A stretch of DNA of 25,863 nucleotides from a virus. Positions 2,815 to 24,337 of this stretch are shown here, one piece after another (within the stretch, counting starts at the first letter, position 1; each line of letters begins with the position of its first letter). The notes below the pieces were generated by a model. That model saw only the letters and a program-made list of their open reading frames with translations. It was not told the DNA's origin and ran no database searches. Position numbers and translations under genes: made by a program. The stretch covers positions 1 through 25,863 of the IMG/VR virus record IMGVR_UViG_3300001450_000244; one strand, written 5' to 3'.

Positions 2815-3152
2815 ATAAAGATACAAAAGAAAAATGGGTAGCAGCGTTGAGAAGCGGTGAGTACCGCCAGTGTCAAGGAGAATTGAAGGACTCCATCGGC
2901 GCACATTGCTGCCTAGGCGTGCTTTTAGAAACACAGGGTTGGAAGCAGACCACGTCTTATAAAGCTAAAAGCATTTTCTCAAACTATGTGTCACCTAAAG
3001 GTGTCATTAACATGGAAGAAAATGAATTAGACGAAGAAACATCTGACCGTTTCGGTCTAAATAGACAGCAACAAGTTAAGCTAATGAAGCTTAACGACGA
3101 TACAGGTTGGAGTTTCAACTTAATAGCTAGATGGATAGAGAATCATCTGTGA
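2811..3152 (+). CDS. Conserved phage protein of unknown function
   Basis: The 113-residue product has the layout of a widespread phage hypothetical family: KWVAALRSGEYRQ at the start, a HCCLGVL motif near residue 33, and a C-terminal LNDDTGWSFNLIARWIE segment. I recognise the pattern from many tailed phages but know of no assigned function. Start ATG 2811 overlaps the previous stop (ATGA). The neighbouring Cys pair in CCLG could be structural or bind metal. Confidence 0.75.
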   Translation: MNKDTKEKWVAALRSGEYRQCQGELKDSIGAHCCLGVLLETQGWKQTTSYKAKSIFSNYVSPKGVINMEENELDEETSDRFGLNRQQQVKLMKLNDDTGWSFNLIARWIENHL

Positions 3153-3153
3153 T

Positions 3154-3300
3154 ATGAGTAATAAATGTAAGCGATGCATGCATAAACAGGCATCCATCAT
3201 CGACAACAACATAGCTATCTGTGCTACTTGTTGGCTTGAGATGTATGGTGATGAAGATAAGAAAGAAAGTAGTAGTAATAATGAAGATGACCCCAGATAA
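3154..3300 (+). CDS. 48-residue mini zinc ribbon
   Basis: An ATG one base after the previous stop opens a 48-codon frame ending TAA at 3298-3300. The product carries CKRC near residue 5 and CATC near residue 23, a two-CxxC zinc-ribbon arrangement, followed by an acidic, Ser/Asn tail. The four ordered cysteines support it as a real gene despite its length. Function is unknown. Confidence 0.6.
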   Translation: MSNKCKRCMHKQASIIDNNIAICATCWLEMYGDEDKKESSSNNEDDPR

Positions 3301-3472
3301 TAATAATGATGACTATGCAAAAAGACGATACAAAGTATTTCAACGTCATAAGGAACAACTAGGTCGTTATGCAATGTCTTGGCATGAATTTAAAATTTCA
3401 TACAATAAAAAGATTAAAGAAAATTCAGCTAATATATCTCAGAGAACAAAACTAATAAACATATTGGACTAA
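3287..3472 (+). CDS. Small basic hypothetical protein
   Basis: This 61-residue frame overlaps the end of the mini zinc ribbon in another frame. I place the start at ATG 3287; ATG 3281 is equally possible, and a TTG at 3221 would add an unlikely Val/Lys-rich stretch. The product is polar and basic (YAKRRYKVFQRHKEQLGRY) and probably helical. No clear ribosome site is seen, so expression and start are uncertain. Confidence 0.5.
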   Translation: MTPDNNNDDYAKRRYKVFQRHKEQLGRYAMSWHEFKISYNKKIKENSANISQRTKLINILD

Positions 3473-3476
3473 TGAA

Positions 3477-4112
3477 ATGGCAATACGTGGTACATACCCA
3501 GCAGTACATATCTCTACAATGTCAGGGAAACTTGACAATTTTAAAGCTATAAGTACAAATACTATAACCAATGATTTTTGCAATCAACAGAATGCTTTGA
3601 ACAATCAAAGCAAAATTTGTACTCACTGTTACAGTCATACAATGCTAAAGAGCTATCGTAAGAACATGGCTCCAGCACTACAACGTAACAGTGATAGACT
3701 GTCAAGTAAGCCTCTCACTAGTGAAGAGATACCTAATATACTGGAAAGGGTATTCAGATTTAGTGCTCATGGTGAGCTTATAAATGACATTCATTTCAAT
3801 AACTTAATGCTGATAGCTGAATCAAATCCTGAAACAGTGTTCAGTCTGTGGTCTAAACGTAAGGATATTATAACCAAAGTATTGAACAAACGTCCTAAAC
3901 CTGTGAATCTAATACTGATTTACTCAAATCCCACTATTTCCAATGTACTTAAATCACCGCCCCTTTACTTTGATAAAACATTCAATAATGTGTTAGAGGA
4001 TGAACATGTAGAAATACAAAACTGCACTGGACAACAGTGTAAAAACTGTCTAAAGTGTTATACTCTTAATAACGGTATTACAACTATAGTAGAAAAAGTT
4101 AAGAAATACTAG
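3477..4112 (+). CDS. GP88-like cysteine-rich phage protein
   Basis: The 211-residue protein has CTHCYSH near residue 48, then SYRKNMAPALQRNSDRLS, and a C-terminal cysteine cluster CTGQQCKNCLKC. This order resembles the phage gene-product-88 group, whose members have a CxxCY motif near the N-terminus and a Cys-rich tail. The cysteines suggest a metal or iron-sulfur site, and some relatives are discussed as radical-SAM-like, but I cannot see a CxxxCxxC triad. The match is by memory of the pattern, so the family call is tentative. Function unknown. Confidence 0.5.
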   Translation: MAIRGTYPAVHISTMSGKLDNFKAISTNTITNDFCNQQNALNNQSKICTHCYSHTMLKSYRKNMAPALQRNSDRLSSKPLTSEEIPNILERVFRFSAHGELINDIHFNNLMLIAESNPETVFSLWSKRKDIITKVLNKRPKPVNLILIYSNPTISNVLKSPPLYFDKTFNNVLEDEHVEIQNCTGQQCKNCLKCYTLNNGITTIVEKVKKY

Positions 4113-4132
4113 CTTAAAATAAAGGACAGACT

Positions 4133-4339
4133 ATGACAGCACTACCAGCGCGTATGACTGTAAATCTACATAATGTAGAAGCAGTTGAACTAGAACAAAG
4201 CTCATTCAATAATGAAAGGACAGAAGGAACTACATACATACTATCAATAAAAATTAAACTTAAAGGAAGTAAGCATTATACTGAAAATGTAACCATGTTC
4301 TCTGACGAACAAATAACTATCACCAACAAGGAAGACTAA
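4133..4339 (+). CDS. Hypothetical beta-rich protein
   Basis: This 68-residue protein has a good ribosome site, AAAGGA, six bases before ATG 4133. Alternating polar and hydrophobic residues suggest a small beta-sheet fold. I do not recognise it. It sits four bases before the DUF932-type gene and is probably co-translated with it. Confidence 0.65.
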   Translation: MTALPARMTVNLHNVEAVELEQSSFNNERTEGTTYILSIKIKLKGSKHYTENVTMFSDEQITITNKED

Positions 4340-4343
4340 AGCT

Positions 4344-5261
4344 ATGACTTATGATTATCTAGACCAAATGACATCCGTTGATCGTCCCGTATTCTTTGAC
4401 GTTGAGAAACTAAACGTACAATCAGGCGGTGGACTATTCGATGCACCTGATAAACGAATGCTAGTACGTCACACTGAAGACTTCGGAAGGCGTGAGTATA
4501 TGTCAATCGTAAACAAGACATATGAAGTTGTCCTGAATTCTGATATCCTATTGCCCTTTCAAAAGCAATTGGTAAACCATTTTGATCCTTCAGTTTTAGA
4601 GGACATGGAGATAAAGGATCATGTCTTAAAGAACGGTGCAGTTTGTTACAGTGAGTATATCTTACCTAGAGTATCACGCCCTATTGAAACTAAGACAGGA
4701 CATAGGACTGATCTAGGATTAAGGTGGATCATGAAGAATTCCTTTAATGGAAGTTCATCTGTAGTTTTATACGGCGGGTTGATCGATTTCTTCTGTACAA
4801 ATGGTATGATTACAGGTAAATTCGACGTTATGAAACAGCGTCACACTAAGAACTTTGAAGTTGAAGGATTCTATCGTGCCTTTGAAGATACTGTACACAA
4901 ACATACATTAGTTATGGATAAGTATCAGGAGTATGCTGATAAGAAAGTTACGTCAGCTGTAAATGTTAACTTGTTATTCAAGAAGCTAGTTACACCAGCT
5001 GTAGATGCAGAGGTAAAATCGAAACGCACTAACACCTTGTCAGATCGACTGTTTGTTCAGTACGCTGAAGAAGCTGCTGTGAGAGGACATAACGTATTCT
5101 CTGTGTTGTCAGCCCTTACTAACTATGCCTCACATGGAGAGCAGGACGGTCGCTTTAAAGTACAGAAGCGTGCTGATGAGAGTGCCTTGTTCAAACGTCA
5201 AGAGCAGGTCGCGAAATGGACTAACTCCCGTGTATGGGAAGACTACTTAGAGGTTGCATAA
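4344..5261 (+). CDS. DUF932-type phage/plasmid protein
   Basis: The 305-residue product fits the DUF932 family of phage and plasmid proteins. The marker region is NSFNGSSSVVLYGGLIDFFC with TNGMITG following (near residues 132-157) and then RHTKNF. Members occur in many phages and mobile elements, but no biochemical role is established. An AAGGAAGA precedes the ATG. Length is normal for the family. Its position in the early block suggests a role at takeover or in DNA metabolism; this is inference. Confidence 0.75.
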   Translation: MTYDYLDQMTSVDRPVFFDVEKLNVQSGGGLFDAPDKRMLVRHTEDFGRREYMSIVNKTYEVVLNSDILLPFQKQLVNHFDPSVLEDMEIKDHVLKNGAVCYSEYILPRVSRPIETKTGHRTDLGLRWIMKNSFNGSSSVVLYGGLIDFFCTNGMITGKFDVMKQRHTKNFEVEGFYRAFEDTVHKHTLVMDKYQEYADKKVTSAVNVNLLFKKLVTPAVDAEVKSKRTNTLSDRLFVQYAEEAAVRGHNVFSVLSALTNYASHGEQDGRFKVQKRADESALFKRQEQVAKWTNSRVWEDYLEVA

Positions 5262-6375: not shown

Positions 6376-6804
6376 ATGTCAGACAAGAACAAAGATACTA
6401 ATAAAATCTCTCTGTTAAAGAGGAATGTTTTTGATCTAACATCACAACTTTATGATCAACTTAAAAATGTAGCAGTTTTACAGAAGGATTTTTTTAAACT
6501 GAAACAAGAGATTAAGTTGGTTAAAGATAAACTTAAAATGGAAACACAGCAAGGTATTAAAGAGATGATAATACGAACTGACGCTGACGATGGAAAATAT
6601 AACTCTGAATTAGAACTTAATATCGCAGATATAATCCGTCACTACTCCACCCCTGTAGAGTGGGACGATTTACCTTACGATAATATGGATATAGAAGCAC
6701 GACAAAAGGTACGATTTCAAGATGCAAATCCACCACACAAGAGAGACCTGTTAAAAGCTGCAGAGGAGATAGTTAAACTAATTACTGGTAGTGCTTACTT
6801 ATGA
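6376..6804 (+). CDS. Coiled-coil hypothetical protein
   Basis: The 142-residue protein begins with a heptad-like, Lys-rich helix (about residues 8-55). Inside it, FFKLKQEIKLVKDK nearly repeats the tail of the 1801 gene product, and the DNA shares T7-A3-CTGAA-R-CAAGA. The C-terminal half is a separate acidic domain that I cannot name. Its stop overlaps the thyX start (ATGA), suggesting coupled translation with nucleotide metabolism. Confidence 0.65.
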   Translation: MSDKNKDTNKISLLKRNVFDLTSQLYDQLKNVAVLQKDFFKLKQEIKLVKDKLKMETQQGIKEMIIRTDADDGKYNSELELNIADIIRHYSTPVEWDDLPYDNMDIEARQKVRFQDANPPHKRDLLKAAEEIVKLITGSAYL

Positions 6805-7508
6805 GTGATACATCAGTAGAATTAATTGACTGCATGGGAAGTGATTTATCTGTAGTCAATGCAGCTAGGGTGTCAATGGATAAGGCTAGTCAGTGGAATA
6901 CTACAAACCTAGCAACCTATGGGGGTTGCATTAAAGAAAAGATACTACATGAGAATGACGTTAAATTAATCAAGTATCTAGCTAAGCACAATCACTGGAC
7001 ACCATTTGGACATGCGTTTGCATCCTTTAGAATTAAAGCTCCGATATTTATAGCTAGACAACTAGGTAAGCATCAAGTAGGATTAGTGTGGAATGAAGTG
7101 TCTCGACGTTACGTTGATAGTGACCCTGAATTCTACAAGCCTAGTGAATGGCGAGCTAAAGCTCCTAATATAAAGCAAGGTAGTTCAAGTGATACAGTAG
7201 ATGACAATGTAGGTATTAGTATCGACTATACTACTATAACTATGAGTTGTTATCTTACATATAAAAAGATGATCGATCATGGTGTATGTCCAGAGCAAGC
7301 ACGTATGATCCTACCGCAGAGCATGATGACCGAATGGATTTGGTCAGGTAGCTTGTATGCATTCTCGCGAGTATGTAATCTTAGAATTGATCCACATACA
7401 CAGAAAGAGACACAAGTTATAGCTTGGAAAATCGATGAATATATGGAACGAAGGTTCCCTGTATCTTGGAAGGAGTTACTTAATCAGAAGAATGAATTGG
7501 TAATTTGA
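6801..7508 (+). CDS. thyX: Flavin-dependent thymidylate synthase ThyX
   Basis: The 235-residue length and pattern fit ThyX, which makes dTMP from dUMP using methylene-tetrahydrofolate, FAD and NADPH. Visible marks are HWTPFGH (residues 65-71), PIFIARQ (81-87), WNEVSRRYV (97-105) and GVCPEQARMILP in the C-terminal half. The usual RHR(x7)S signature appears here as KHQ followed by eight residues and Ser101, so two of three signature residues differ and the spacing is one longer. I believe related phage enzymes share this form, but I cannot check that here. With the deaminase upstream and RNR downstream it forms the dTTP supply route. Confidence 0.9.
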   Translation: MSDTSVELIDCMGSDLSVVNAARVSMDKASQWNTTNLATYGGCIKEKILHENDVKLIKYLAKHNHWTPFGHAFASFRIKAPIFIARQLGKHQVGLVWNEVSRRYVDSDPEFYKPSEWRAKAPNIKQGSSSDTVDDNVGISIDYTTITMSCYLTYKKMIDHGVCPEQARMILPQSMMTEWIWSGSLYAFSRVCNLRIDPHTQKETQVIAWKIDEYMERRFPVSWKELLNQKNELVI

Positions 7509-14118: not shown

Positions 14119-14195
<77 letters not shown>

Positions 14196-17181: not shown

Positions 17182-18864
17182 ATGTCATTTAGAAGTAACC
17201 ACAACCCTATGTTCCGTTCCAAATTCAGCGAAGATATATTTAATAACAAGTATCAACACCAATCATGTGAGACATGGGCTGCATTATGCAAAGTCTTAGT
17301 TGAAGATGTATGCCTAGACATGATGACCAAGGATGAGAAAGAACAGTTAATACAGTACATGATTGAGATGAAGTTCATCCCCGGTGGACGTTACCTTTAC
17401 TATGCAGGACGACCTAACAAGTTCTTTAACAACTGCTATCTATTGAAGTCAGAGAGTGACACACGGGAAGATTGGGCTAACCTATCATGGAAGGCTGAGT
17501 CATGCTTGATGACAGGGGGTGGTATAGGTAATGACTACTCAATCTATCGTGCAGAGGGTGAAGTCTTAGGTGGTACAGGTGGACTAGCTAGTGGACCTAT
17601 ACCTAAGATGGAGATGATCAATGAAGTTGGCCGTCATGTGATGCAAGGGGGTAGTCGTAGATCAGCTATCTATGCTAGTTTAAATTGGAAACATTCAGAT
17701 GCTCATAAATTCTTATACATTAAAGATTGGTATCAGATGCCTGTAGGAAATACAGGATTGTCAATGGGTGATCTTAAGGAACAAGACTTTAACTTTCGTG
17801 CTCCATTAGATATGACTAACATCAGCTTGAACTACGATACTGAGTGGTTACTTAACTACTATAAGACAGGAGATACAGGCGACACGTTTAAAGCTAACGT
17901 GAAACAAGCACTATCAACAGCTGAACCGGGGTTTAGTTTTAACTTCTTTGATAAGGAAAAAGAAACCCTGCGTAATGCTTGTACTGAAGTTACATCTGAG
18001 GATGATAGTGATGTATGTAACTTAGGTTCGTTGAACATGGGACGAATAGATGGCATTGAAGAGTTCTCTGATATCACTGAACTAGCTACTAAGTTTCTGT
18101 TATGTGGTACAACTAGAGCTAAGCTACCATACGAAAAGGTCTATGAAACTAGAGAGAAAAATAGACGGTTAGGTTTAGGCTTAATGGGTATTCATGAATG
18201 GTTAATTAAGAAGGGTTCTAAATATGAAGTTACTAAGGAGCTTCATCAGTGGTTGTCCATTTATAAAGGAACCTCTGATCTTGTTTCAAAATCTTTTTCT
18301 AATAAGTTGGATGTGTCTTGCCCTGTTGCTAATCGTGCTATTGCTCCTACAGGAAGTATCGGTATTCTAGCTGGCACATCAACAGGTATTGAACCTATCT
18401 TTGCTACAGCCTACAAGCGTAGGTACCTTAAGAACGGTACACGTTGGCACTATCAGTATGTAGTTGACAGTGCAGCTGCTGAGTTGATTGATCTCTATGG
18501 TGTTGATCCTAATAAGGTTGAGTCAGCCTTGGACTTAGCTGATGACTATGAACGTCGTATTCGTTTCCAAGCTGACATACAGGACTATGTAGATATGAGC
18601 ATCTCATCTACAATTAACTTACCTTCATGGGGTAGTAAGAATAATAATGAAGATACAGTGGGTGCGTTCTGTAATACACTAGCATCTTATGCGTCACGCT
18701 TGAGAGGATTTACATGCTATCCTGATGGTGCAAGAGGCGGTCAACCTCTGACATCCGTACCATACTCTGAAGCTGTTGATAAATTAGGAGAAGAGTTTGA
18801 AGATAACATTCAATCCCATGACATCTGTGAGATCAGTGGTACAGGTGGAGTGTGTGGTGTATAA
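17182..18864 (+). CDS. Class II (B12-dependent) ribonucleotide reductase
   Basis: The 560-residue protein reduces ribonucleotides to deoxyribonucleotides. The first redox cysteine is Cys85 in FFNNCYLL. The active-site set is Asn265, Cys267 (thiyl radical) and Glu269, with the second redox cysteine Cys279 in DVCNLGSLNM. The APTGSIGILAGTSTGIEPIF loop follows, and the C-terminal redox pair is Cys549 and Cys558. No small subunit gene is beside it and the sequence has class II features, so I infer adenosylcobalamin dependence, with cofactor from the host. It is shorter than the ~740-residue Lactobacillus-type enzyme. GGAGAG precedes the ATG. Confidence 0.9.
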   Translation: MSFRSNHNPMFRSKFSEDIFNNKYQHQSCETWAALCKVLVEDVCLDMMTKDEKEQLIQYMIEMKFIPGGRYLYYAGRPNKFFNNCYLLKSESDTREDWANLSWKAESCLMTGGGIGNDYSIYRAEGEVLGGTGGLASGPIPKMEMINEVGRHVMQGGSRRSAIYASLNWKHSDAHKFLYIKDWYQMPVGNTGLSMGDLKEQDFNFRAPLDMTNISLNYDTEWLLNYYKTGDTGDTFKANVKQALSTAEPGFSFNFFDKEKETLRNACTEVTSEDDSDVCNLGSLNMGRIDGIEEFSDITELATKFLLCGTTRAKLPYEKVYETREKNRRLGLGLMGIHEWLIKKGSKYEVTKELHQWLSIYKGTSDLVSKSFSNKLDVSCPVANRAIAPTGSIGILAGTSTGIEPIFATAYKRRYLKNGTRWHYQYVVDSAAAELIDLYGVDPNKVESALDLADDYERRIRFQADIQDYVDMSISSTINLPSWGSKNNNEDTVGAFCNTLASYASRLRGFTCYPDGARGGQPLTSVPYSEAVDKLGEEFEDNIQSHDICEISGTGGVCGV

Positions 18865-18876
18865 GGATATATGTAG

Positions 18877-19443
18877 ATGCTAACCTATATAACATATGAT
18901 CAGGATTTACCCTTTGGTTTCTGTGATGAATTAGTTAAAATGTCAAGACACTTTAACCTAGTTGAAGCTAAGATTGGTAGAGATGGTGATCAGGTACTGA
19001 TGGATGAAGTTAGGAATACTAGGATAGCATGGCTTAATAACAAAGAGATTAATGATATATTATATTTCTATGCTGTAAAGGCTAACACAGATGCTAACTG
19101 GAACTTTGACTTAGCTGCTTCTGAAATACCTCAAGTGTCATTCTACGAGAAGGGAAACTTCTATGATTGGCATTATGATACAGGTTCTGAGAAAGCTGAC
19201 GAAGATTTACAGCGTAAGATAACTGTAACTGTAACCTTAAGTGATCAATATAAAGGTGGTGATCTTCAAGTACAGAAGTGGGTTCATCCTCAAGAATCTG
19301 ATAACTTTTCTACAATTAAAGCAATGAGAAATAGAGGTTCAGTATGTGTCTTTCCATCTTATATATTCCATAGAATTAATAAGGTACATAATGGAGAACG
19401 AGTAGCTTTAACTTCTTGGTTTAGAGGGAGAAAGTTTTCTTAA
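18877..19443 (+). CDS. 2OG-Fe(II) oxygenase, prolyl-4-hydroxylase-like
   Basis: The 188-residue protein has the iron and 2-oxoglutarate site: His99 and Asp101 in WHYDTG, distal His165 in YIFHRI, and Arg175 in ERVALTSWFRG. GGDLQVQK and VCVFPS fit the P4Hc/PiuC-like group. It would hydroxylate a protein side chain or a small molecule; a nucleobase substrate is possible but unproven. Start 18877 follows AAGGA by nine bases, 12 bases after the RNR stop. It is followed by two glycosyltransferase-type genes, which could act on the hydroxyl it makes. Confidence 0.85.
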   Translation: MLTYITYDQDLPFGFCDELVKMSRHFNLVEAKIGRDGDQVLMDEVRNTRIAWLNNKEINDILYFYAVKANTDANWNFDLAASEIPQVSFYEKGNFYDWHYDTGSEKADEDLQRKITVTVTLSDQYKGGDLQVQKWVHPQESDNFSTIKAMRNRGSVCVFPSYIFHRINKVHNGERVALTSWFRGRKFS

Positions 19444-19488
19444 CATGGTTGAATAAAGTCCTTGGACTATTGCGTAAATAGGAGTATG

Positions 19489-20310
19489 ATGTTCTGTACT
19501 AAATATAATAATAATAAAAAGAAACTAGAGAAGGGTACTAAGAATATTATGAATGTAGATTGTAAGTTACCTACAGTGTATATTGGGTATGATCCTACTG
19601 AAGATGACTACTTCAGAACACTAGTGTATAGTATTAGAAAACACGCTAGTGCGCCGGTACAAATAGTACCACTAGATCAGCACGAACTACGAAGAGCAGG
19701 TCTATACTCAAGATCATATGAGATTGTTGACGGTAGAAGAGTGGATGTCTTTGACGGAAAACCCTATTCAACCGAATTTAGTTTCACTAGATTCTTAGTA
19801 CCTTTCTTACAACAGTTTAGTGGTAAAGCTATATTCATGGACTCTGACATGTACGTTAGAGGAGACATCATGGAAGTATTTAATAGGTGTAATGCAGGGT
19901 CTAACAAAGCTATCTACTGTGTCAAGCACAACTATACTCAAGTTGAAGGTAGCATTAAGATGGATAACAAACTACAACAAAACTATTTCAGAAAGAACTG
20001 GTCTAGTTTTATACTGTGGAATTGTGATCACCCTTCTATCAAGAGATCATATACTTTAAGTGATGTTAATACTAAGAGTGGTAGCTGGTTACATGGTTTT
20101 TATTGGTTAGAGAACGATGAAATTGGTGAACTACCTGAAGAATGGAACTGGCTTGATAGTCATTCTCCTTCCAGTATATCAGCTAAGAATGTACACTTTA
20201 CTTTAGGCGGTCCTTTGTTTGCTACATGGGAACCAGCAAGAAAAGCAGACGCTATGTATGCTTTAGAGTATGGTGAATTATACAAGGAGATGATTGACAG
20301 TAATGATTAG
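19489..20310 (+). CDS. GT8-like glycosyltransferase
   Basis: The protein is a GT-A fold enzyme: VYIGYDP near the N-terminus, SFTRFLVPFL, then the metal-binding DxD motif in AIFMDSDMYVRGD. This order resembles GT8 and glycogenin-like enzymes, which move a sugar from a nucleotide-sugar donor. The start is uncertain: AGGAG (19480-19484) precedes tandem ATGs at 19486 and 19489, and a later ATG at 19549 begins exactly at the conserved domain. The first 20 residues are Lys/Asn-rich. Donor and acceptor cannot be inferred. It overlaps the next gene by eight bases. Confidence 0.8.
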   Translation: MFCTKYNNNKKKLEKGTKNIMNVDCKLPTVYIGYDPTEDDYFRTLVYSIRKHASAPVQIVPLDQHELRRAGLYSRSYEIVDGRRVDVFDGKPYSTEFSFTRFLVPFLQQFSGKAIFMDSDMYVRGDIMEVFNRCNAGSNKAIYCVKHNYTQVEGSIKMDNKLQQNYFRKNWSSFILWNCDHPSIKRSYTLSDVNTKSGSWLHGFYWLENDEIGELPEEWNWLDSHSPSSISAKNVHFTLGGPLFATWEPARKADAMYALEYGELYKEMIDSND

Positions 20311-22633
20311 ATTTGTAACTTCCTTTAGTGCTGAAGGGTATGAACAGTACGCTAAGAATATGTTGTTTTCAGTCCTCAAATATTGGAAGGATGATCTTCA
20401 ACTTATAGCATATTACCATGACATGCCTCAAGATGTAGTCAATGAATTTCCTGTAGGTAAGAACATTGAGTACCGTAATCTTAATGATGTGCCTGACATG
20501 CTGGCTTATAGAGAAGCTATGAAGGAGCATGATGGTACAGGCAAGGGAAAAGTACCATACAATTGGCGCTTAGATGCAATCAAATGGTGTCATAAAGTAT
20601 ACGCTATGACTGATACGTCCTTACAGATTACTGAGTCAGAAGTTAAAGGCGGTTGGCTTATATGGTTAGATGCTGATACTGTAACCAAGCGCCCTCTATC
20701 TGAAGAGAAGCTTAAGGAATTCTTGAATGACAAAGCTGAGATTTCTCATTTAGGTAGAACAGCTGCAGACTATAGTGAAACATCTTTCTTAGCTTTTAAT
20801 CTTGACTATCAAGCACCTCATCTTTTACTAGCAGACCTTAGAGGTTGCTATGATACTGGTGAGGTTGTGTCGTACAGAGAATGGCATGATGGATTTATCT
20901 TTGAACGTCTATTAAATATTTACTCCGCTCATGGTATGAAGGTACAGAATCTTTCACCTAAAGTTAAGGACTTAGATGCTTTCGGAGTATCACCTGTAGC
21001 TTACTACATGGATCACTTCAAAGGTAATAAGAAACATAACCTATCAGATGACAGGGTAAGTGGTGATGTTAAGTTGCCTCGATACAGGCAATTAGCTGAG
21101 CTTGTACGGACCTATGCTACTGACAACATCCTAGAAGTTGGTACATGGAACGGGGGTAGAGCTATCGAGATGGCTTTAGCTGCATTTGAGAAGTCTGACA
21201 CTGTACACTACACTGGCTTCGATATGTTTGAAGAAGCTACAGAAGAGATTGACGCATATGAACTTAATACTAAAGGACATAATACACTCAAGGCTGTAGA
21301 GAATAGATTAGAGAACTTCTGTAAGAAGATGGGTGAACAAGATAAGACTTTTACTTTTGAACTATACAAAGGAGACTCTAAGAAAACTTTAAGTAATCTT
21401 AGTTTAGAAGATGTGACATTTGCATACATTGATGGTGGTCACAGTGACGAGACAGTTAACAGTGACTATGAGAACCTAAAGCATGTACCTGTAATTGTAT
21501 TTGATGACTTCTTCTCTAAGGATGCAGCAGGTAATATCATAGGTGAAGAGCATCAAGGTACTAACCGATTAGTTTTGGATAAATTAGAAGGAAAACGAGT
21601 TACAGTCTTACCATCACAGGACAAGGTATTAGTTAAGGGTAAGCAACAAGGTTGTACACACCTTGCAGTTCTATTAAATAACGATGAGCTTCCACCTATC
21701 CCGTCTGACTTACGTAAAGCACCTATCATTATACAACCTAAAGATAGTGTACCTCAAGAACATATCACTGCTAATATTCAAGCTAACCTTGAGCTTATCA
21801 ATGATTGGAGCCTTATTAATAACTGTGATATTAATGATGAGTCTGTAATTATAGTATCGGGTGGTGACTCTACTGACTTTGAATCTATTAAATATCTTAA
21901 AGATACCTTAAACTCTAAGGTAGTGTGTGTCAAACACTCATATCCTAAATTACTAGAGGCTGGTATACAACCTTATGCATGTGTTATACTAGACCCCCGT
22001 GAAATTAAAGGAACATCAACACACGGCGTTGTACGTGCATCCTTGTTTGAAACCGTAGATGATAAGACTATGTTCTTTGTCGCATCAATGACTGATCCGT
22101 CAGTTACTAAGCATCTACTTCAGAAGACTGATAAAGTATATGGCTGGCACGCATTCTCACAAAGCTTAAAAGACAACACGAAGACTGAAGAAAATCCTAA
22201 TGGCGCTATTGATTTAGGTGAAGGTGCAACCTTTGTAACGGGTGGTACATGTGCAGCTATGAGAGCTATTGCGATGTTTCATATCTTAGGGTTCAGAGAC
22301 TTTGAATTATTTGGATATGATAGTAATATATTAGATGAAGTTACTGATGAGATGAAGAAAGAAAAGATTAGAGATAATCAACCTAAGTATATACCCGTTG
22401 AACTTAATGATAAAAACTTCTGGACTACAGGAGAACTACTTGCAATGGCACAAGATTGTGAGAAGCTGTTTGAATCTACAGATGTAGAGATGAACATTGT
22501 AGTTCATGACGATAAGAAAGAGACACTAATAGGTGAAGCTTGGAGAACATCTTCTAAGTTTGACTATCACCACTATTCATATAGGATTGAGAATCTTAAA
22601 CCTACCCCATACATCGAAGGAGATACTAAATAA
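20303..22633 (+). CDS. Glycosyltransferase / methyltransferase / Maf-MptE-like fusion
   Basis: The 776-residue protein has three parts. Residues about 1-260 look like a GT-A glycosyltransferase (IRFVTSFSAEGYEQYAKNM, then DxD in WLIWLDADTVT, residues 123-125). Residues about 265-445 form a class I SAM methyltransferase (ILEVGTWNGGRA, YTGFDMFE, YIDGGHSDETVNSDYENL). Residues about 485-700 resemble the DUF115/MptE-like fold of flagellin Maf transferases (VIIVSGGDSTDFESI, GIQPYACVILDP, GGTCAAMRAIAMFHILG). Each module points to glycan building or trimming, and having all three in one phage protein is unusual. ATG 20303 is preferred over TTG 20294. It would act with the GT8-like protein upstream. 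Confidence 0.75.
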   Translation: MIRFVTSFSAEGYEQYAKNMLFSVLKYWKDDLQLIAYYHDMPQDVVNEFPVGKNIEYRNLNDVPDMLAYREAMKEHDGTGKGKVPYNWRLDAIKWCHKVYAMTDTSLQITESEVKGGWLIWLDADTVTKRPLSEEKLKEFLNDKAEISHLGRTAADYSETSFLAFNLDYQAPHLLLADLRGCYDTGEVVSYREWHDGFIFERLLNIYSAHGMKVQNLSPKVKDLDAFGVSPVAYYMDHFKGNKKHNLSDDRVSGDVKLPRYRQLAELVRTYATDNILEVGTWNGGRAIEMALAAFEKSDTVHYTGFDMFEEATEEIDAYELNTKGHNTLKAVENRLENFCKKMGEQDKTFTFELYKGDSKKTLSNLSLEDVTFAYIDGGHSDETVNSDYENLKHVPVIVFDDFFSKDAAGNIIGEEHQGTNRLVLDKLEGKRVTVLPSQDKVLVKGKQQGCTHLAVLLNNDELPPIPSDLRKAPIIIQPKDSVPQEHITANIQANLELINDWSLINNCDINDESVIIVSGGDSTDFESIKYLKDTLNSKVVCVKHSYPKLLEAGIQPYACVILDPREIKGTSTHGVVRASLFETVDDKTMFFVASMTDPSVTKHLLQKTDKVYGWHAFSQSLKDNTKTEENPNGAIDLGEGATFVTGGTCAAMRAIAMFHILGFRDFELFGYDSNILDEVTDEMKKEKIRDNQPKYIPVELNDKNFWTTGELLAMAQDCEKLFESTDVEMNIVVHDDKKETLIGEAWRTSSKFDYHHYSYRIENLKPTPYIEGDTK

Positions 22634-22863
22634 TGTTAGATTTATTCATGGAAAATAAAGAGTTCTTGTTAATCACTTTAACACAGATCATTGCTGTAGC
22701 ATCTTTGTTAGTAGCTGGTACTAAGACCCCTGACCCTAGCACAATCTTAGGCAAAGCCTATACAGTAGTTGAGTTCTTAGCCTTGAACTTTGCAAGAGCT
22801 AAAGAAGTAGGCGAGAAGAAAGAAGTAGTAGTAGTAGCAGCAGTTGATAAGAAAGATACTTGA
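22633..22863 (+). CDS. Candidate holin, small membrane protein
   Basis: The 76-residue protein has one hydrophobic segment (about residues 11-28, FLLITLTQIIAVASLLVA), a short amphipathic region with PDPSTILGKAYTVVEF, and a charged tail with a GTA-repeat-encoded valine run. Size, membrane segment and position directly before the spanin genes fit a holin. A single-span type is less common, and no holin family is matched with certainty. The start overlaps the previous stop (TAATG). Confidence 0.55.
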   Translation: MLDLFMENKEFLLITLTQIIAVASLLVAGTKTPDPSTILGKAYTVVEFLALNFARAKEVGEKKEVVVVAAVDKKDT

Positions 22864-22865
22864 CA

Positions 22866-23078
22866 ATGATAGCTACAATACTGGGTTCAGTATTTAACTT
22901 ATTTACTAAAGTTTTACCTTTACTATTCGCATACAAAAGCGGTAAAGATAGTGCTAAGCTAGATCAATTAGAGGAGGTAGTAGATGTTATTAAAGAAGCT
23001 AACGAAGTTGAAGACAGTGTTAATCGTGCTAACTCCTCTGATATTCATAAGCGGCTGCAGCAGTGGGTCCGTAGGTGA
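22866..23078 (+). CDS. i-spanin-like (Rz-type) protein
   Basis: The 70-residue protein has an N-terminal membrane helix (MIATILGSVFNLFTKVLPLLFA), then a coiled-coil stretch (KLDQLEEVVDVIKEANEVEDSV) and a basic tail ending HKRLQQWVRR. This is the layout of inner-membrane spanins, which join an outer-membrane lipoprotein to fuse the two membranes at lysis. ATG 22866 is chosen over TTG 22860. The o-spanin gene begins inside it in another frame, as in lambda Rz/Rz1. It is short for Rz (lambda 153). Confidence 0.75.
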   Translation: MIATILGSVFNLFTKVLPLLFAYKSGKDSAKLDQLEEVVDVIKEANEVEDSVNRANSSDIHKRLQQWVRR

Positions 23079-23199
23079 TGGTAGGGTATACTGTAGCTGG
23101 TCTAAACCTATCTACCTAAGTGAGTTAGATGTGCTTAGTAATGACACAGCTAAGCAACTATTAACTCATAATGAAACATGGAAAAAACTGTGTGCTTAA
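22984..23199 (+). CDS. o-spanin lipoprotein (Rz1-type), overlapping gene
   Basis: The 71-residue product starts with a lipoprotein signal: KKLTKLKTVLIVLTPLIFIS followed by Gly24-Cys25, a fair lipobox (ISGC). A very strong ribosome site, GAGGAGG (22971-22977), lies six bases before the ATG and inside the i-spanin gene. The mature part (WSKPIYLSELDVL, then LLTHNETWKKLC) follows the WxRPI...HNETW...C pattern of small phage outer-membrane lipoproteins. It would be anchored in the outer membrane and pair with the i-spanin. This supports a Gram-negative host. Confidence 0.8.
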   Translation: MLLKKLTKLKTVLIVLTPLIFISGCSSGSVGDGRVYCSWSKPIYLSELDVLSNDTAKQLLTHNETWKKLCA

Positions 23200-23200
23200 T

Positions 23201-23749
23201 ATGATTAAAACATTATTAATAAACGCATATGCTAAAATATTCTGGTGGTGTAATAGACCTAAGAAGGCTACAGCTATGCCTCATGTTACTTTATGTAAGC
23301 CACCTGCTGAATATTCTGAGTACTTAAAACGTAATCCTACATATCGCACATTCTATGTAGGAGTACCTATGCTATTAAGACCTATAGATTGGTATAATAT
23401 GTGTGAAGTTAATGATACTATTAACTACGGCTCTCAATACAAAGATAACCTACAAGGTAAAGACTGCTGGTCTTTAGAAGGATCAGAGGGAAACTGTGAG
23501 TATTATGCGATAAAGAAAAGACAACTACTTTTAGATGGTGGTATTAAGAGAGCTAACTTACCACTAGCTACGTGTCTTAATGAGCAAGGGCTTCCTCATG
23601 TAGTTCTGTGTGTCACTACATCAGAGGGTGTATATGTACTTGACAGTAGATTCGATGAAGTTCTACCTTGGAATAAGATTAACTACTCAAGTTGGAAAAT
23701 TGAATTATCTACTAATAAAGAATTATTATGGTCACAAGTAACACACTAA
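23201..23749 (+). CDS. BTLCP transglutaminase-like cysteine peptidase
   Basis: The 182-residue protein has the bacterial transglutaminase-like cysteine peptidase pattern: VNDTINYGSQYKDN, then GNCEYYAIKK with Cys99, LPHVVLCVTT with His133, and GVYVLDSRFDEV with Asp148. These form the Cys-His-Asp triad of LapG-type periplasmic proteases. The N-terminus is hydrophobic and may be a signal or anchor. The gene follows the spanins where an endolysin would be expected, so a cell-envelope target at lysis is likely, but peptidoglycan cleavage is not shown. ATG 23201 avoids overlap with the o-spanin gene; ATG 23171 is possible. Confidence 0.8.
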   Translation: MIKTLLINAYAKIFWWCNRPKKATAMPHVTLCKPPAEYSEYLKRNPTYRTFYVGVPMLLRPIDWYNMCEVNDTINYGSQYKDNLQGKDCWSLEGSEGNCEYYAIKKRQLLLDGGIKRANLPLATCLNEQGLPHVVLCVTTSEGVYVLDSRFDEVLPWNKINYSSWKIELSTNKELLWSQVTH

Positions 23750-23761
23750 GGCATAATAAAT

Positions 23762-24337
23762 ATGACAGTACAATCTAAAGAACTAAACCTTAAGCAAGAG
23801 AAGTTTTGTCAAAGCTATGCTATGTATCATAATGCAACAGCTGCAGCTAAGACTGCGGGTTACTCTGACGGATCAGCGCATACACAAGGCTCTAGGCTTA
23901 TGGCTAGACCTGAGATACAAGAAAGAATTGAACAGCTTGAAGGTGAGATGGAGACTTCATTAGATGTAGTCTCTGAACTTGAGGATCAGTACCAGTATGC
24001 TAAAGTTAATAACCATACTAACAGTGCATTAAAAGCACTAGAGGTACTGTCGAGACTTAAGAGTGTAGAAGAAGTTGATATACCTAAGTCTATTACTGAA
24101 CTAGAAGAAGACATTATAAAGGACTTAGAAATCTTAGGTGAAGATACTGTAGCTAAGTTATTTCTTAAATGTAAATGGTATGCTAGTGAACCTGATGATG
24201 GTGATGATGATGAAGCAGATAATAATATAGCATCTGAAACAATTAAAGATATTGAGATACAGAAAGCAGCAGCTAAGAAAGAATATAGATACCAGCATAG
24301 AGCTAGGCGTAAGTCTGCAGGTAACGTACTAACTTAA
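23762..24337 (+). CDS. terS: Terminase small subunit
   Basis: The 191-residue protein begins with the Terminase_2-type DNA-binding region: LNLKQEKFCQSYAMYHNATA, AAKTAGYSD, GSRLMARPEIQERI. A coiled-coil stretch follows and the tail is acidic (DDGDDDEAD) then basic. It would recognise phage DNA for packaging and pass it to the large subunit. The large subunit is not in the window, so the two genes are separated, or the large subunit lies on the opposite-strand block. The gene closes the rightward block. Confidence 0.88.
   Translation: MTVQSKELNLKQEKFCQSYAMYHNATAAAKTAGYSDGSAHTQGSRLMARPEIQERIEQLEGEMETSLDVVSELEDQYQYAKVNNHTNSALKALEVLSRLKSVEEVDIPKSITELEEDIIKDLEILGEDTVAKLFLKCKWYASEPDDGDDDEADNNIASETIKDIEIQKAAAKKEYRYQHRARRKSAGNVLT

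Follow-up and report, generated by a model that had tools for sequence, protein, structure and literature searches.

The IMG/VR record IMGVR_UViG_3300001450_000244, a 25.9-kb piece of the genome of an uncultured virus that was analysed over its full 25,863 nucleotides (the window), encodes a GT8-like glycosyltransferase (GT) followed by a 779-residue protein in which a GT-A domain, a methyltransferase and a Maf-like domain are fused. This pair, which in many relatives is accompanied by a 2-oxoglutarate (2OG)-Fe(II) oxygenase, is read here as a phage-encoded cassette that makes a methylated glycan, and the acceptor of that glycan is more likely a virion protein than the host envelope (probability about 0.5). 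The three genes that the preliminary description of this DNA had placed side by side are co-directional and intact, in a run that continues into holin-like, spanin and terminase genes, and the identities proposed for them are supported by Pfam matches, predicted folds and conserved motifs. The cassette is composed as follows:

18877..19443, plus strand: 2OG-Fe(II) oxygenase of the P4H/PKHD type, optional member (PF13640)
19549..20310, plus strand (open reading frame (ORF) from TTG 19462): GT8-like glycosyltransferase, core member (weak PF01501 match, DxD motif, homologue starts)
20303..22633, plus strand (ORF from TTG 20294): GT-A, methyltransferase and Maf-like fusion, 779 residues, core member
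20303..21028, plus strand: fusion domain 1, predicted retaining GT-A fold with DxD motif (AlphaFold2 predicted local distance difference test (pLDDT) 91.0)
21029..21613, plus strand: fusion domain 2, S-adenosylmethionine-dependent methyltransferase, Methyltransf_24/TylF-like (PF13578, 38.7 bits, cut-off 26.3)
21665..22513, plus strand: fusion domain 3, Maf-like (PF01973, 46.5 bits, cut-off 34.6)

The first domain of the fusion (residues ~1-245) has no Pfam match. Its model finds an alpha-1,3-galactosyltransferase and a xyloside xylosyltransferase as best PDB matches (E about 1e-9 to 1e-8), and the DxD motif is kept in 101-105 of 109 homologues. Alpha-actinins, which the profile of this domain reached in the PDB by sequence (E 0.006), were taken as chance matches because the fold search returned glycosyltransferases. 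For the Maf-like domain, the AlphaFold2 model (pLDDT 89.6) matches the Maf enzyme 5MU5 first (E 7.9e-9, TM-score 0.52) and an archaeal HPPK from Methanocaldococcus second (E 7.9e-6, TM-score about 0.4), with mammalian sialyltransferases lower down at weak E-values. The GT8-like protein scores 18.6 bits against PF01501, under the cut-off of 24.3 that its homologue in Pelagibacter phage Mosig exceeds (30.9 bits); in the PDB its profile weakly hits WbbM and one GT8, and its DxD motif is present in 172 of 172 homologues. Assignment of the oxygenase to the P4H/PKHD type follows from its PF13640 (2OG-FeII_Oxy_3) score of 57.3 bits, above the cut-off of 27, and from an HxD...H iron triad that is invariant in 80 of 80 homologues. 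The closest solved structure is the PKHD-type hydroxylase 3dkq, and the Pfam matches of this protein are to PF13640, 13661 and 13759, with none to PF12851 (Tet_JBP). All three ORFs are intact with conserved catalytic motifs, and the cassette genes are under purifying selection, with dN/dS (nonsynonymous to synonymous rate ratio) values of 0.02-0.24 in the pairs tested. Judging from homologue starts, the GT8-like gene probably begins at ATG 19549 and the fusion at ATG 20303, overlapping the GT8 stop codon.

A first search found six loci, including that of the virus under study, and a profile scan of IMG/VR found 497 stretches encoding a relative, the best 80 of which were retrieved. These loci are contigs and do not each stand for an independent virus, and near relatives are over-represented among them. 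The co-occurrence on which the preliminary description had staked its proposal is seen in dozens of contigs, where oxygenase, GT8 and fusion genes lie together. In the gene-order table, many uncultured podoviruses share a common plan that runs from ribonucleotide reductase (RNR) through oxygenase, GT8, fusion and one or more lysis genes to the terminase small subunit (TerS). GT8 and the fusion are the constant pair of the fetched loci: the fusion is almost always paired, and a GT8 gene with no adjoining fusion occurs in 56 of 172 loci, in more distant phages. Distance correlations between cassette and neighbour genes did not separate the cassette from the backbone, and because the TerS-fusion correlation exceeds the GT8-fusion correlation, we do not claim functional co-evolution. 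In locus L003, a divergent RNR (2955-4862, 24% identity) replaces the usual one, with oxygenase, GT8 and fusion kept beside it.

The oxygenase lies within three genes of the pair in 73 of the 105 paired loci having more than 1.5 kb of upstream sequence, and its presence requires at least four gains or losses on a fusion tree of 54 representatives, which was built without the methyltransferase domain. The closest relatives of the window (L002, L006 and L119) have no oxygenase beside the pair. A search of ten whole viral records with no adjacent oxygenase gave no PF13640 match in nine and a distant one in the tenth, L119, these records being fragments in which absence is no proof. Because the oxygenase adjoins the pair in only part of the loci, and in none of the closest relatives, the hydroxylate-then-glycosylate pathway that the earlier description had found coherent is unsupported as an obligate one. 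Gene order instead indicates that the oxygenase is an optional member and that the unit is GT8 plus fusion. L119 itself is a 100-kb contig in which a PF13640 gene lies tens of kilobases from GT8 and the fusion; its length is unusual for the lineage, and it is possibly a concatemer or chimera. An HSP20 chaperone gene stands between oxygenase and GT8 in L009 (5230-5703), L010 (5496-5930) and L046 (6739-7233).

The genes that share the slot with the pair, and those that adjoin it in distant phages, also bear on its function. An FkbM methyltransferase occupies the same slot in L004 and L005, and L018 and L019 carry there a GDP-mannose 4,6-dehydratase (over the curated cut-off) as well as a DegT aminotransferase, a combination suggestive of a GDP-perosamine-type sugar. 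Other slot genes are NrdB in L043 and HNH proteins in L062 and L116, and a weak methyltransferase match lies 3′ of the fusion in L112 and L113. In the cultured HMO-2011-type phages CRP-3 and CRP-212, the site is cassette-free, with only two small ORFs between RNR and the convergent genes, which is likewise newly observed here; the autographivirus CRP-361 was set aside as a comparator because its plan after RNR is different. Among distant phages, L131 has the order terminase large subunit, methyltransferase, methyltransferase, GT8, GT/Maf, portal and head protein. Its GT/Maf protein has no fused methyltransferase and the two separate methyltransferase genes stand in its place, and this arrangement argues, as a Rosetta stone, that methylation is part of the same process. 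A portal gene also lies next to the pair in L169 and L140, and in L129 GT8 and the fusion are just downstream of a 1906-residue virion structural protein. In Mosig, a GT-A homologue adjoins GT8, and two FkbM methyltransferases and a gene with a sulfotransferase annotation accompany them. In CcrColossus, an MptE-like match that falls just short of the cut-off (31.8 bits) lies next to a tail protein, with GT8 nearby; a paper on phiCbK-like Caulobacter phages does not discuss glycosyltransferases.

Sequence comparison of the fusions further indicates that the methyltransferase domain alone is swapped between otherwise near-identical proteins, a new observation of this work. Between L009 (6713-9019) and L032 (7992-10298), DNA identity is 0.90-1.00 in the GT-A domain, 0.58-0.78 in the methyltransferase and 0.85-1.00 in the Maf-like domain, and the methyltransferase core of L032 is 98% identical to those of L033, L034 and L106. 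The window shares 95% identity with L004 (4184-5524) over the GT-A domain and 57-64% over the methyltransferase, the change being abrupt at about residue 243; L004 ends within the fusion, so that only the near boundary of this exchange is visible. When a segment was scored as the odd one out if the other three were all at least 85% identical and on average at least 15 points above it, the methyltransferase was the odd segment in 39 pairs and each other segment in none. These 39 pairs are not independent, and at least two exchange events appear to have taken place. Such localized exchange suggests diversifying pressure on the methylation step, which would point to recognition from outside the cell.

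The virus that carries the cassette is an uncultured phage, probably of marine origin. Its replication and nucleotide genes encode a T7-like primase/helicase, a family-A DNA polymerase, endonuclease I, ThyX, dCMP deaminase, a MazG-like protein and RNR, and its virion genes lie on the minus strand, beyond a convergent switch. The interval from RNR to TerS holds the oxygenase, the GT8-like gene, the fusion and overlapping holin-like and spanin genes, so that the cassette overlaps the lysis genes and continues co-directionally into the terminase gene. The flanking features are these:

17182..18864, plus strand: RNR, upstream context outside the cassette (PF02867, 155 bits)
22633..22863, plus strand: putative small holin-like protein with one hydrophobic segment, its start overlapping the fusion stop
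22860..23078, plus strand: Rz-like spanin (phrog_1026, E 1.4e-9)
23762..24337, plus strand: TerS, downstream end of the co-directional run (PF03592, 59.4 bits)

The RNR is 76% identical to that of CRP-3 and 74% to that of CRP-212, and in other relatives a GTA_holin_3TM protein lies 3′ of the fusion. Because the cassette genes overlap or are closely spaced and are not separated by any forward terminator-like site, they are likely carried on one transcript; promoter-like sites in the window occur at chance level. A BTLCP/Peptidase_C93 gene (23171-23749) between spanin and terminase is not found at this place in the relatives examined, and a tRNA-Arg (tct) gene (14119-14195) lies between Gp2.5-like and Cas4-like exonuclease genes. 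The ThyX of the window (6801-7508) has no canonical RHR-x7-S motif, the sequence there being KHQVGLVWNEVSRRY; because the ThyX of the cassette-free phage CRP-1 also departs from this motif (KHEYMPWNEISRRY), we do not tie the unusual motif to the cassette. Across bacterial and archaeal genome contigs and 385 sampled genomes of the class of a Sneathiella metagenome-assembled genome (MAG), the full fusion occurred in a single phage-like contig, so that no cellular origin was found. The only match in the bacterial and archaeal genome collection, L104, is a phage-like contig binned in that Sneathiella MAG, and this binning is an unproven hint that an alphaproteobacterial host is possible.

In the scheme that we infer for the catalytic steps and their order, the sugar and the acceptor, the cassette would probably be active late in infection. 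Host nucleotide sugars, which in some relatives may also be phage-made, would supply the sugars that the GT8-like enzyme and the GT-A domain add, the fused methyltransferase would O-methylate a sugar, and the Maf-like domain would either transfer sugar to a protein acceptor or dock that acceptor. The oxygenase would serve as optional tailoring, hydroxylating acceptor or sugar. The likeliest acceptor would be one of the virion proteins that assemble in this same cytoplasm, with the host surface second. Characterised Maf enzymes glycosylate Ser/Thr of flagellin, a cytoplasmic structural protein (PMC11339370), and in mycobacteriophages there are phage enzymes that glycosylate the virion (PMC12363180). 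The GT-A and Maf folds, the GT8-fusion pairing, the sugar genes and FkbM in the slot, the pair adjoining virion genes in distant phages, and the overlap with lysis genes and continuation into the terminase gene in the window, together bring this reading to about even odds. Several points weigh against it: the cassette is known from genes and predicted folds alone, in uncultured phages; the Maf match is remote (~14% identity); the cassette of the window lies outside the virion-gene block; similar GT genes occur in large myophage sugar clusters (Mosig; S-SCSM2R, beside KdsA/KdsB), which are usually guessed to modify the envelope; and nonulosonic-acid genes were absent from those genes of the loci that were annotated.

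The strongest competitor, a possible one that we rate lower than a virion acceptor, is modification of the host envelope, in which the lipopolysaccharide (LPS)/O-antigen or capsule of the infected cell would be altered, so that other phages could not adsorb or progeny would not be lost to cell debris. The GDP-mannose dehydratase and aminotransferase of L018 and L019 are typical O-antigen genes, relatives in Mosig, S-SCSM2R and L183 lie in LPS-like clusters (FkbM, sulfotransferase, KdsA/KdsB or mannose-6-phosphate isomerase), and published readings of marine phage glycosyltransferases lean towards LPS (PMC9602691, PMC9599517). However, no flippase, polymerase or ligase was seen within the cassette, its position with lysis and packaging genes is late for superinfection exclusion, and distant copies adjoin portal, head or giant virion genes. 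It is unlikely that the target is host flagellin, re-glycosylated by the Maf-like domain so that flagellum-dependent phages cannot attach. Although the top fold match is a flagellin-type Maf enzyme, the accompanying match to the flagellin modification protein PseD is weak (18 bits against a cut-off of 670), neither nonulosonic-acid genes nor a link to motility genes was seen, and two further GT domains and a methyltransferase would not be needed.

PF01973 is named after MptE, and the Methanocaldococcus HPPK is second by structure and first by profile (E 0.12), as would be expected if the Maf-like domain were an MptE-type pterin kinase in cofactor metabolism. We consider this very improbable, given that 5MU5 is the better structural match on both E-value and TM-score, that the domain is fused to a GT-A domain and a methyltransferase and paired with GT8, and that no pterin genes were seen around it. 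Oxygenase-glycosyltransferase pairs are known in DNA modification, and the oxygenase could in principle hydroxylate a base to which the glycosyltransferases add sugar. Other marine podophages do carry hypermodification genes (PMC9599517), but here the oxygenase is of the PF13640 rather than the Tet_JBP type and is optional, the window ORFs that were scanned include neither a thymine pyrophosphorylase nor a hydroxymethylase-type gene, and folds and neighbour genes indicate glycan chemistry. PF12851 also had no match in 15 related records, a result of weak weight because the control was silent too. Of the targets entertained in the preliminary description, a surface or virion glycan is therefore preferred, and a hypermodified base, with nothing positive in its favour and several indications against it, is the least probable of the explanations considered.

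Returning to a methylated glycan on a virion protein, a bolder version, which we hold only tentatively and think doubtful, is that the cassette is a compact protein O-glycosylation machine of Gram-negative marine podoviruses, in which methyltransferase-limited recombination re-types the particle surface from one phage to another that is otherwise nearly identical, and so generates antigenic or receptor variation. Within the literature found, virion glycosylation by phage enzymes is documented in mycobacteriophages, and a conserved two-gene unit carried by a widespread lineage of uncultured podoviruses would take it beyond them. Related database entries are at present labelled only 'methyltransferase' or 'MptE-like'.

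Compared with known systems, the cassette resembles mycobacteriophage virion glycosylation by Che8 gp110 and Corndog gp38 (Freeman et al. 2023, as cited in PMC12363180 and PMC11256854) in having phage-encoded glycosyltransferases and virion proteins as acceptor, proposed here and proposed or shown there. It differs in domain make-up and in being known from genes alone. Because homology was tested and a tblastn search with both the fusion and GT8 gave no mycobacteriophage match among 50,697 phage records, we do not claim membership in that kind. Like the Maf flagellin glycosyltransferases (Magnetospirillum 5MU5), the C-terminal domain of the fusion passes the PF01973 cut-off and has 5MU5 as its closest fold match. 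Canonical Maf proteins consist of a degenerate Rossmann-like N-domain, a Maf_flag10 centre and a helical C-domain (PMC11339370), whereas the N-terminal part of the fusion is GT-A plus methyltransferase, in a phage context. Entries of uncultured Caudovirales in BFVD (A0A6J7X5Q0 and others), labelled 'Methyltransferase domain containing' or 'MptE-like', match over the Maf-like domain (290 columns, 32% identity, TM-score 0.73). Mosig and cyanophage S-SCSM2R share the GT8 homologue (38.5% identity in both), and Mosig also has the adjacent GT-A homologue (27%) with FkbM methyltransferases; both differ in having separate genes, larger sugar clusters and a myophage backbone. The HMO-2011-type roseophages CRP-3 and CRP-212 have the gene order of the window as far as RNR, beyond which their genes are convergent, but only two small ORFs at the site instead of the cassette. 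In its mode of action the cassette resembles virion glycosylation or surface-glycan modification by phages; the Maf-like domain is a PF01973 member, but the fusion as a whole is a non-canonical Maf.

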